Source of the DNA: a virus
Virus record (IMG/VR): IMGVR_UViG_3300031712_000159
Location: 1 to 37,230 of that record
Direction: 5' to 3' (one strand)
DNA length: 37,230 bases
In this document: in pieces, positions 26,350 through 28,710 of the stretch
How the letters are laid out: every line of letters begins with the position of its first letter
Position numbering within the stretch: position 1 is the stretch's first letter
Position numbers and translations under genes: made by a program
The notes under the pieces: model-generated
Databases searched by the model: none
What the model was told of the DNA's origin: nothing
Seen by the model: only the letters and a program-made list of their open reading frames with translations

Positions 26350-26635
26350 TGATCTTTCTAATTGTAGTTGTAAATGGAAATCCTGTTGACCTGGGCACTT
26401 GCTGTATCTGATCCATCAATGTACTTCCTGAAGTAAACAGTACATGCATTTCGTTTTCAAATGACAATTGCAGAGTTAAACATTTACCATTGCCTTTTTA
26501 CTGATAACATTTTGAATCATCTATTTTATAATCATGCACCATTATTGATTTATCAAGTATTTTATGAATTTTAATTTTGTCACCTGTAAATTTGTTAGTC
26601 GTAGGCTTAATACCAAAGTCACTGAAATTCGTCAT
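26327..26635 (-). pseudogene. DGR-operon gene coupled to RT, interrupted by an in-frame TAA
   Basis: The start codon overlaps the RT stop as ATGA (26632-26635). The frame reads MTNFSDFGIKPTTNKFTGDK (1-20) and runs to TAA at codon 46 (26498-26500). After that codon it continues KGNGKCLTLQLSFENE, LFTSGSTLMDQIQQVP and FPFTTTIRKINERYEF to TGA at 26327-26329. The two halves make one coherent domain of 102 codons, similar to small OB-fold-like proteins I know from Bacteroidota mobile elements; a single-stranded nucleic-acid role is inference. Either the gene is broken by a nonsense mutation, or the stop is read through. It occupies the otherwise empty gap between RT and downstream genes. Confidence 0.7.
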
Positions 26636-27597
26636 GCTGCTAATTGATATAAATTAAACTTCTTTAATAAATGAATACTATCACAATGCTTTGCCCATCC
26701 ATAATAAGATGCTATGGATGCTTTATTTTTATTATTTGCAAGCATCCTGGCAAAAGCTTTTTTAATGCTTGGACGTAATAAAACGTGTGTATGATAATGG
26801 ACATAACCTACAAAATCAATTCCCCTGGATTCAACCGGGAATATTTGATAGTTATGTTTAATTGTGAGCTTTAAATTACAGCTAAAATAAAGCCGTATTT
26901 CAGCGAGTAATTGATGCAGGTACTTTTTATCATCAGACAGAATAACAATGTCGTCAGCGTAACGGAAATAATACTGTACGCCTTTTACTTCTTTTATCCA
27001 GTGATCGAAATACGTTAAATAGAAGTTTGCAAAATATTGACTCAGGTAGTTTCCAATGGGGAGTCCGGGTGCGCTGTCAATTATCTCATCAAGTAACCAA
27101 AGAAGATCTTGATCCTTAAATTTTCTACGGAGCAACATCTTGAGCACATCGTGATCCACGCTTGGATAAAACTTTTTAATGTCAAGTTTCAGGCAATAAG
27201 TTGTATCGGCATAATCATTCAATGCTTTGCGTACTGCATTAGAAGCTGCGTGAATGCCACGACCTTTTATACAACTGAAAGTATCTGCTGTAAATGTTGA
27301 AACAAACACCGGCTCAAGGATGTTCATCACAGCGTGATGAACGATCCTGTCCGGGTAATAAGGAAGCCGACTTATGATCCTTTCCTTTGTCTCATTAATC
27401 GTGAATGTAGTGTACTGGCTTGTTTTGTAAGTTCTGTTTTTCAAAGCTTCATGAAGAGCAATAATATTTGCTTCACAGTTCCTGTCGTGCAATTTAATCC
27501 CATACTGATTCCCTTTACCTTTACGTGCAATTGAATCGGCAAGCATTAAATTTTCAATGCTAATTATTTTTTCGTACAGGTTATTCAATCGTTTCAT
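26632..27597 (-). CDS. DGR reverse transcriptase
   Basis: This 321-aa RNA-dependent DNA polymerase shows the canonical order: YCLKLDIKKFYPSVDHD with catalytic Asp139 (motif A), GLPIGNYLSQYFANFYL at about 178-194 and YFRYADDIVIL with YADD at 213-216. A thumb-side GIDFVGYVHYHTHVLLRPS follows. I-G-x-x-x-S-Q in place of the Q-G-x-x-x-S-P of group II intron and retroviral enzymes is the DGR hallmark. There is no maturase or endonuclease domain. It copies the TR transcript lying just upstream (27716-27790) into adenine-mutagenised cDNA that replaces the VRs. It is co-oriented with its targets and the early operon and translationally coupled to the small downstream gene. Confidence 0.95.
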   Translation of the reverse strand: MKRLNNLYEKIISIENLMLADSIARKGKGNQYGIKLHDRNCEANIIALHEALKNRTYKTSQYTTFTINETKERIISRLPYYPDRIVHHAVMNILEPVFVSTFTADTFSCIKGRGIHAASNAVRKALNDYADTTYCLKLDIKKFYPSVDHDVLKMLLRRKFKDQDLLWLLDEIIDSAPGLPIGNYLSQYFANFYLTYFDHWIKEVKGVQYYFRYADDIVILSDDKKYLHQLLAEIRLYFSCNLKLTIKHNYQIFPVESRGIDFVGYVHYHTHVLLRPSIKKAFARMLANNKNKASIASYYGWAKHCDSIHLLKKFNLYQLAA

Positions 27598-27690
27598 TAT
27601 GCTTTGCCTTTGCTTGTTAAAAGAGAACTTTCATTTTCATTACTAATACCCTTTTAGTTATTTGTAATTTTTTGCCATGTTGGCACGGTC

Positions 27691-27806
27691 TGCATTATTC
27701 ATAATTATTTTGCATAGGTGAGAGCTGCAATTCGTATTCGTATTCCAGTTATCGTAATTCGCATTCGACAGACTGAAGCCTGAAGGGCGCAGCTCTGAAT
27801 AATGCA
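27691..27806 (-). ncRNA. Template RNA with two-part terminal stem
   Basis: Outer arms TGCATTATTC (27691-27700) and GAATAATGCA (27797-27806) are exact complements. Inner arms AGAGCTGC (27721-27728) and GCAGCTCT (27789-27796) are exact complements and abut the outer right arm. Together they make an 18-bp stem with a 20-nt bulge on one side, closing a loop that contains the TR core. The region lies between target gene 1 and the RT gene and has no ORF. RNA folding is predicted, not shown. Confidence 0.65.
27716..27790 (-). repeat. DGR template repeat (TR), 75 bp
   Basis: The TR aligns without gaps to 27904-27978 and 28316-28390. On the coding (minus) strand it has 20 adenines. VR1 differs at 15 of these, VR2 at 11, and neither differs at any of the 55 other positions. 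If translated it would read SNANYDNWNTNTNC in the core, showing the AAC/AAT codon enrichment that maximises amino-acid choice under adenine mutagenesis. It is upstream of the RT gene in the same direction. Confidence 0.97.
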
Positions 27807-27812
27807 CCACCT

Positions 27813-28226
27813 TTACTTTTTATACAATATATAATCCTTCCAATGTTTATTGAAATTCTTATTCTCAAAACAATACATTGCAACTTCTTTGTTTATAAAT
27901 TGAAGGCGAGAGCCGCAAGACGTAATCGTAATCCAGCGACCGAAATCCGCAGCCGACAGACCGAAGCCCGAAGGGCGCTTTTTATCTGCTTCAATTCCAA
28001 ATAACAGTTCATATTTCCAATTATTGTCGGTGTAATCAGGAATCCATTCTTTTCCGCCATTGGCTTCTGCATTTAATGCTGCAATGATAATCGGCAGGAT
28101 ATAACATGCATATAAATAATCTCTCATTTCTTCTGGAAATTTTGAGAATTCAGAAATCGTTAGCAGTTCCTTTTTACAGTATTTAAAAGCATCTGCGACT
28201 GTTTTAATTTTAGATTTGTAGTTCAT
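27813..28226 (-). CDS. DGR target protein 1
   Basis: This 137-aa protein has VR1 covering residues 84-108. Before it are WIPDYTDNN (61-69) and KYELLFG; after it QFINKEVAMYCFEN and a terminal YILYKK. The frame RPSGFGLS, variable core, W, CGSRL is a small-protein fold seen in Bacteroidota phage proteins, probably C-type-lectin related (inference from DGR targets generally). Compared with the TR-encoded residues, N92 to Ala, N94 to Asp, Y95 to Phe, D96 to Gly, N97 to Arg, N99 and N101 to Ile and N103 to Ser have changed. There is no signal peptide, membrane segment or tail-attachment domain. The gap to its paralogue upstream is 4 bp. The ligand is unknown. Confidence 0.9.
   Translation of the reverse strand: MNYKSKIKTVADAFKYCKKELLTISEFSKFPEEMRDYLYACYILPIIIAALNAEANGGKEWIPDYTDNNWKYELLFGIEADKKRPSGFGLSAADFGRWITITSCGSRLQFINKEVAMYCFENKNFNKHWKDYILYKK
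27904..27978 (-). repeat. Variable repeat 1 (VR1)
   Basis: 75 bp matching the TR except at 15 of its 20 coding-strand adenines. Changes go to G, C and T. It codes for residues 84-108 of target 1. Its 3' end, GCGGCTCTCGCCT on the coding strand, is the GC-rich initiation-of-homing-like end and differs from the TR end by two adenines. Confidence 0.96.
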
Positions 28227-28230
28227 GGTT

Positions 28231-28710
28231 TTATTTTTTAATGGTTATAAATTCTTTATATTTTTCAGTGAATTGGGCAAAAGCAAAACGCATTCTTTTT
28301 TCATCTTTAAAATAAAGGCGAGAGCCGCAATACGTATGCGCAAACCAGTTATCGTAATACGCATACGACAGACCGAAGCCCGAAGGGCGCATATCAAAGT
28401 AACCATACCACTTCGGTTCATTCGTAGTCCAGTCAGGTACCCATTTTTCATTTATAGCTTTTGTGATTATTACCAACTCCTGGTAACGCATCGTATGGCC
28501 CTCAATACCTGCTTTTACCATCTTGTGATAACATACTACATCTTCGTCTTGATCTCCGCAATATTTAATTGCTAATTCAAGACTGATAATACTTTCATAG
28601 TTGAAGTCAAAAGCATCTTTTCCATAAATATCATGGAGAAGTTCTTTTAATTCATCTGACAAATTCCCATAAAGCTTTTTCGCTTTTTCAATTGATTTTT
28701 GTGTTTCCAT
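28231..28710 (-). CDS. DGR target protein 2
   Basis: This 159-aa paralogue of target 1 has a longer helical N-terminus (KLYGNLSDELKELLHDIYG) and the shared WVPDWTTNEPKWYGYF block (90-105). VR2 is at about 108-132 (RPSGFGLS, YAYYDNWFAHTY, CGSRL), and the C-terminus is YFKDEKRMRFAFAQFTEKY. Variable positions favour aromatic residues (Y, Y, F, H, Y), as in binding surfaces. There is no signal peptide or fibre-attachment region. As first gene of the DGR block it follows an exported DPBB-like protein by 10 bp. Confidence 0.9.
   Translation of the reverse strand: METQKSIEKAKKLYGNLSDELKELLHDIYGKDAFDFNYESIISLELAIKYCGDQDEDVVCYHKMVKAGIEGHTMRYQELVIITKAINEKWVPDWTTNEPKWYGYFDMRPSGFGLSYAYYDNWFAHTYCGSRLYFKDEKRMRFAFAQFTEKYKEFITIKK
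28316..28390 (-). repeat. Variable repeat 2 (VR2)
   Basis: 75 bp matching the TR except at 11 of 20 coding-strand adenines, no other change. Nine TR adenines are unaltered, so VR2 keeps more TR identity than VR1. Four changed positions at the two flanks are A to G in both VRs. Confidence 0.96.

Follow-up and report, generated by a model that had tools for sequence, protein, structure and literature searches.

The locus and its inverted repeat

Diversity-generating retroelements (DGRs) rewrite chosen genes, and both the recognition of template and target and the RNA around the template are questions that are open or have recently been addressed for a single phage. We took up these questions in one DGR of the virus record IMGVR_UViG_3300031712_000159 (the window, meaning the whole stretch of 37,230 bases that was analyzed), where the template repeat (TR) is enclosed by an inverted repeat. 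What does this repeat do, and is it how the reverse transcriptase (RT) tells template from target, as a preliminary description of the sequence had proposed? The window also contains transposable-phage genes, including a transposase (phrog_310), a transposition protein (phrog_296), and a tail sheath. The DGR lies on the minus strand in the order VR2 gene, VR1 gene, TR, spacer, RT:

28231–28710, minus strand: VR2-bearing target gene, 159 aa, phrog_11581 (unknown function)
28314–28391, minus strand: VR2, aligned to the TR, 12 of 12 mismatches at TR adenines
27813–28226, minus strand: VR1-bearing target gene, 137 aa, phrog_11581 (unknown function)
27904–27978, minus strand: VR1, aligned to the TR, 15 mismatches, 15 at TR adenines
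27714–27791, minus strand: TR, aligned to VR2, all 12 mismatches at TR adenines
27691–27700 and 27797–27806: outer arms of the repeat, 10 bp, perfect (TGCATTATTC and GAATAATGCA)
27721–27728 and 27789–27796: inner arms of the repeat, 8 bp, perfect (AGAGCTGC and GCAGCTCT)
26632–27597, minus strand: DGR RT, 321 aa, matching RVT_1, phrog_1423, and BPP-1 RT structures

The RT is of the DGR type by its matches to RVT_1, phrog_1423, and the BPP-1 RT structures (8ub7 and others), with an E value of 1.6e-42 against the BPP-1 RT sequence of nine PDB entries, and both TR/VR pairs differ at TR adenines (12/12 for VR2, 15/15 for VR1). No Avd family member appeared among the window proteins scanned (8 and 10 in two scans, a subset of the ORFs). 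The two small tandem VR genes are the DGR targets in the window. Nearly all of the relatives described below have two VRs, about 190 and 550–660 nt upstream of the TR, and a third VR was seen in L036, L037, L038, and L064.

The position of the repeat, its perfect 10-bp and 8-bp arms, and its abutting right arms can be read directly from the sequence, as first described, and both VRs, which read AGAGCCGC, have no such outer arms. The description of an 18-bp repeat in two parts needs one correction: the outer helix gains three pairs, GGU with ACC (27809–27811 with 27687–27689), across a small internal loop. We refer to this longer outer helix as P1. In the minus-strand RNA it consists of GGU, a 2-nt loop, and UGCAUUAUUC, pairing with GAAUAAUGCA, G, and ACC:

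27797–27811, minus strand: P1 5′ arm, just upstream of the TR (GGU at 27809–27811, loop GG at 27807–27808, UGCAUUAUUC at 27797–27806)
27687–27700, minus strand: P1 3′ arm (GAAUAAUGCA at 27691–27700, G at 27690, ACC at 27687–27689)

Of 20,000 dinucleotide shuffles, 191 (about 1%) produced an exact inverted repeat of at least 10 bp between the flanks, and 1 produced the abutting 8 + 10 arrangement, a pattern defined post hoc. The arm sequence by itself is not rare within the window. Folding of the minus strand from 27685 to 27812 gave −39.8 kcal/mol (z = −3.64 versus shuffles).

Conservation of P1 in viral relatives

We fetched viral relatives by their RT and kept the best 80 of 415. A TR was detectable in 77 of the resulting 81 records (80 plus the window), giving 69 distinct regions, window included; in the records where none was detectable (L002, L023, L035, and L061) there is little sequence upstream of the RT. 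P1 was found in all 69 distinct loci, with 685 of 690 cells (ten pairs) forming standard pairs, and left position 9 alone showed all six types (CG, GC, UA, AU, UG, and GU). Stem scores averaged 22.1 for the TR flanks of the 69 loci versus 16.1 for 133 VR flanks. Positions 13 and 14, the next inside P1, pair in 25 and 26 of the 69 loci, which is at chance level, so the 10-bp arm of the window is longer than usual.

Among the cells that are not Watson-Crick pairs, G-U outnumbered A-C by 34 to 2, with 3 others unpaired. Such a bias is what pairing in a transcript running the same way as the RT gene would give, and is not expected of DNA or the opposite strand. It thereby bears on the idea that the arms act in DNA, forming a hairpin or cruciform of the kind found downstream of the BPP-1 VR that would mark cDNA integration or nicking. 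The passages of PMC3240598 on target structure do report that BPP-1 requires a DNA hairpin/cruciform adjoining its VR. The helix studied here, however, surrounds the TR and not the VRs, its arms are about 100 nt apart, and DNA pairing gives no cause for the excess of G-U; we set this possibility aside as hardly credible.

To quantify covariation, we used a MAFFT alignment of 33 of the 69 regions (the L074 row is partial). The scored pair set, which we named ourselves, comprised P1 and two elements of the spacer:

27673–27685, minus strand: P3, hairpin UGCC-AACAU-GGCA
27619–27655, minus strand: P4, helix (27645–27655 with 27619–27629) with an AGUA / GAA internal loop

Across P1, P3, and P4 together, 93.9% of cells were paired and 15 pairs had changed on both sides, a count that ignores kinship. 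The covariation score, which likewise ignores kinship, was 0.521, as against 0.223 for shuffled alignments (0 of 500 reached the observed value) and 0.07–0.15 with slid partners. P1 alone had 98.3% of its cells paired, and RNAalifold recovered it unaided. The covariation check proposed in the preliminary description thus came out in favor of the arms as an RNA structure enclosing the TR: the outer helix is kept in relatives, its pairing maintained through compensatory changes. In P4, the pairs flanking the AGUA / GAA internal loop covary, and we take this loop to resemble the bulged-G (loop E) motif.

Known Rfam families touch the same spacer:

27604–27690, minus strand: spacer stretch resembling the Rfam RT-17 RNA, 31.2 bits

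The window lies below the gathering score of RT-17 (RF03020; 31.2 versus 40.4 bits), RT-17 or RT-18 is above gathering in 2 of the 14 window-family loci given (L054 and L073), and Phage_DGR (RF03022) is above gathering in BPP-1. The matches to RT-17, RT-18, and Phage_DGR at L054:3913-4001, L073:3918-3999, and L081:2750-2882 lie in DGR spacers 3′ of a TR, and from this location RT-17 and RT-18 probably represent parts of DGR RNAs. More generally, the RT-17, RT-18, RT-14, and Phage_DGR RNAs cover the spacer of these DGR loci; none of their matches starts before the TR 3′ end, which leaves the P1 5′ arm, beyond the TR, outside them.

The closing helix beyond the window family

We scanned bacterial genomes and obtained 80 loci, mostly from Bacteroidota, of which 74 had a TR and 73 were distinct. 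The P1 pattern with at least 9 of 10 pairs was found in 68 of the 73 (10/10 in 60 and 9/10 in 8); the remaining five failed the pattern, yet had stems in another register with scores of 19–32. The preliminary description had named same-RT relatives without complementary arms as the finding that would speak against it, and our search for them instead returned the outer helix in 69/69 viral and 68/73 bacterial-genome loci. The anchored P1 search keeps the best of several anchors and so favors matches. An arm-swap test, which is free of this bias, gave a genome-set stem score of 22.4 versus 19.2 (sd 0.35) with arms swapped between loci. The genome set partly overlaps the viral set, some of its loci being identical prophages, and 53 distinct arm pairs are new to the latter. 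Two DGR loci with a stem around the TR (L234 and L238) came from a Termititenax aidoneus assembly, far from Bacteroidota.

For the BPP-1 clade we fetched 67 loci and used the 40 distinct ones with the spacer GTGGTCA, dropping the rest. Here an upstream arm beginning AGGG pairs with the bases directly after GTGGTCA, and the stem score over the 40 loci was 22.55 versus 18.88 (sd 0.47, maximum 20.3 of 300) with arms swapped; when tested without the arm swap, individual records of this clade mostly had weak stems. In BPP-1 itself avd lies upstream of the TR, and the avd 3′ end, AGGGCAGG, has Sp63-70 as its predicted candidate P1 partner.

We searched for remote DGRs with two RTs, from archaeal virus ANMV-1 and Butyrivibrio phage Arawn, and obtained 120 loci, of which 26 had no detectable TR and 67 were distinct and testable. 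Their stem score averaged 28.2 versus 20.4, and 37 of the 67 were individually at p ≤ 0.05 (99 shuffles each). Remote arms often have AGGG or GGGG at the start and CCU or CCC at the end, the bases in between differing. Tested as single phages, crAssphage LMMB, Psychrobacillus phage Perkons, ANMV-1, and Bacteroides phage Versailles passed (p 0.016–0.033) and BalMu-1, Arawn, phiARM81mr, and cr115_1 failed; the single records L150, L154, L155, and L156 were non-significant, and a scan with a crAss-like RT found no relatives.

Compensatory pairing across relatives was thus present in the viral, genome, BPP-1-clade, and remote sets, and by this comparison P1 is deeply conserved by pairing, not by sequence. 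Because the same stem occurs with different sequences in many distant DGRs, P1 is probably a working part of the DGR machinery rather than a quirk of one phage. The same evidence weighs on another explanation, in which the helix is an ordinary terminator or attenuator tuning RT expression from the upstream operon. The helix is indeed stable and is flanked by the VR1 and RT genes; but no U-run follows P1, a conserved hairpin and an A-run taking its place in all relatives, and pairing around the TR is kept across remote DGRs. We consider a terminator very improbable and have set it aside.

The inner helix and the TR-specific adenine

The inner arms form a second helix, P2, that would extend P1 into the TR:

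27789–27796, minus strand: P2 5′ arm, AGAGCUGC
27721–27728, minus strand: P2 3′ arm, GCAGCUCU, within the TR 3′ end, including the TR-specific A at 27726 (G in the VRs)

P2 has a conserved core (GCUG:CAGC/U), and its run length is 4 bp in 30 of 69 loci and 9–10 bp in four, window included. Its mean duplex energy was −7.69 kcal/mol versus −6.99 (sd 0.17) for swapped arms and −4.6 after shuffling of the left arm; at −15.2 kcal/mol the window has the second strongest P2 of the 69. Since its energy exceeds that of both controls, P2 is probably real, with modest covariation, and probably a weaker extension of P1.

We then determined which TR/VR differences are fixed, using 135 TR-VR comparisons in the viral set:

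27715–27726, minus strand: IMH*-like stretch with fixed differences at 27726 (A>G), 27719 (A>G), and 27715 (A>T)

TR position 4 (27726) was A>G in 129 of the 135 and G>G in 6; position 11 (27719) was A>G in 124, G>G in 10, and A>A in 1; at position 15 (27715) the VR had T in 132 and the TR had T in only 10. Interior TR adenines, for contrast, corresponded to A 791, G 778, T 367, and C 184 times. By these alignments the window family has fixed differences at its 3′ end, at 27726, 27719, and 27715, that are IMH/IMH*-like.

The preliminary description held that the inner pair containing the TR-specific A is itself the IMH* mark read by the RT. Part of its argument stands: wherever the TR has A at this site the VR has G (129/129 comparisons), and A pairs best there, the mean duplex energy over 66 loci being −7.6 kcal/mol for A, −7.0 for G, −4.5 for C, and −4.8 for U. 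G was weaker than A by at least 0.5 kcal/mol in 59 of the 66, and one relative (L016) has G facing C instead. A therefore completes the inner pairing best, by about 0.6 kcal/mol over G on average, but a VR-type G still leaves a G-U wobble. Moreover, 3 of 69 TRs are without the A, and in L017, L018, L044, and L059 the A faces G. A structural reason for keeping the adenine is thus obtained in part, and for one of the three fixed positions; the inverted repeat does not include 27719 and 27715. As P2 is weak in most relatives, G wobbles, and two fixed differences fall outside the repeat, the inner pair leaves the discrimination between template and target unexplained, and we judge it improbable as the mark.

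Complementarity between the spacer and the VR

Another element of the spacer fits the other two fixed differences more closely:

27606–27615, minus strand: AAGCAAAGGC, a candidate primer / target-matching element immediately preceding the RT start

The complement of AAGCAAAGGC is GCCTTTGCTT, the usual VR 3′ end, where the TR reads ACCTATGC. The longest exact spacer complement was longer for the VR than for the TR in 68 of 69 viral loci and tied in one. At position 15 the spacer matched the VR in 69/69 loci and the TR in 4/69, and at position 11 it matched the VR in 49 and the TR in 4. Within the genome set the VR complement was longer in 62, tied in 8, and shorter in 3 of 73 loci. We also applied a stricter test, in which the spacer segment was picked solely from sites where TR and VR are identical and the differing positions were then scored. 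Agreement with VR versus TR was 202:53 in the viral set, 191:105 in genomes, and 93:59 in the BPP-1 clade, compared with 125:115, 127:136, and 45:50 in the respective same-strand controls. The match in the window itself is among the weakest of the 69, at 6 nt for VR2 (28314–28319) and 5 nt for VR1 (27903–27907), which could reflect drift or low activity of this DGR.

This complementarity might be a by-product, with the VR fixed by its protein and the spacer element by RT translation or RNA folding. In most loci the element does immediately precede the RT start, and the VR 3′ end encodes a conserved protein stretch that could by itself fix G at two positions. The excess toward the VR was, in addition, absent in the 67 remote DGRs (27 favored the VR and 25 the TR, with 15 ties), where matches exceeded those of swapped pairs for both repeats (VR 6.25 versus 5.83, sd 0.11; TR 6.36 versus 5.66, sd 0.12). 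A universal spacer-VR rule is accordingly rejected. In a broad listing of BPP-1 relatives and named phages, the VR was better in 31 and the TR in 16 of 62. Against a by-product, however, the spacer tracks the VR in the eleven loci with unusual VR ends (window included), where the summed match was 84 versus 73.8 for random spacers (sd 2.6, maximum 81, 300 random pairings). In 125 of 135 comparisons the TR base at 27715-type sites is not the complementary one, and the element lies well upstream of the start codon in L006 and L080. We regard a by-product as unlikely, though deserving serious consideration. Positions 27719 and 27715 coincide with VR-spacer complementarity that is mismatched to the TR, so this element fits them better than the inverted repeat does; as far as sequence comparison can tell, it is the simpler basis for the IMH/IMH*-like distinction in the clade of the window.

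A comparable segment exists in BPP-1, where spacer positions 47–56 (Sp47-56), TAGGTGGTCA, complement the VR sequence TGACCACCTG at the IMH mismatches, at which the VR departs from the TR. We take the published primer site to be Sp56 (A56), the end of this VR-matching segment, and copying to start at TR G117; if so, primer plus cDNA would equal the VR bottom strand. The sections of PMC12875486 on priming place the priming nucleotide at an adenine in the spacer, and those of PMC3240598 on directionality assign it to a 21-bp stretch with five TR/VR mismatches. The two arrangements differ in topology: in BPP-1 the primer segment sits within the loop of P1 and runs up to its right arm, and in the window family the element is outside P1, about 70 nt beyond it at the RT start.

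A model for the template RNA

Our preferred reading, to which we give a probability of roughly 0.75, is that in the DGR template RNA the inverted repeat serves as the closing helix and that template and target are distinguished mainly by the spacer element AAGCAAAGGC in this clade. P1 would join the stretch immediately 5′ to the TR to the beginning of the spacer by base pairing and fold the TR into a loop, bringing both of its ends together beside the structured spacer (P3 and P4), and P2 would lengthen this helix into the TR 3′ end to a variable extent. P1 may hold the TR within the RT complex, may bring the TR 3′ end to the start of cDNA synthesis, and may end the cDNA at the TR 5′ end by blocking the RT there. 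Passages of PMC12875486 describe an RT stop within the BPP-1 upstream RNA, and P1 might be that stop. While comparison among relatives establishes the existence of P1 and its bias toward pairs of the minus-strand RNA, its conservation alone points to none of scaffold, primer positioning, or RT stop specifically.

The distinction between template and target would come from complementarity of the element to the VR 3′ end and its mismatch to the TR at the fixed positions. The element is probably also the cDNA primer, in which case primer and cDNA would be collinear with the VR and not the TR, and the GGC of GCAAAGGC would be the predicted RNA-cDNA junction. A wider version, which we put forward tentatively and at somewhat less than even odds, is that in the clades of the window and BPP-1 the RNA primer rather than the template carries the target address, sparing the TR, and that a closing helix is general in DGR RNAs, holding template and primer.

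The nearest known system is the DGR of Bordetella phage BPP-1 (avd-TR-spacer-brt), which shares the adenine-directed TR/VR differences, fixed IMH/IMH* mismatches, and a structured spacer; its clade also shares the TR-closing helix. Retron msr-msd RNAs have a long-range a1/a2 closing stem that joins both ends of the RT template. The likeness is one of layout only, a long-range stem joining the template ends: the window DGR is without msr/msd, and its product goes to a VR by mutagenic homing. The abstract of Handa 2025 reportedly has upstream and downstream RNA surrounding the template and a homoduplex that primes, and P1 may already be drawn for BPP-1 there. Among the titles and abstract openings covered by our literature searches, we found no description of a TR-closing helix or a spacer-VR match. 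What we claim, from comparative evidence, is the breadth and covariation of P1.

For DGRs at large, a closing helix backed by covariation is a structural anchor for finding, comparing, and engineering these elements and shows which flanks a DGR construct must keep, and complementarity between primer and target is a directly testable rule for their directionality.
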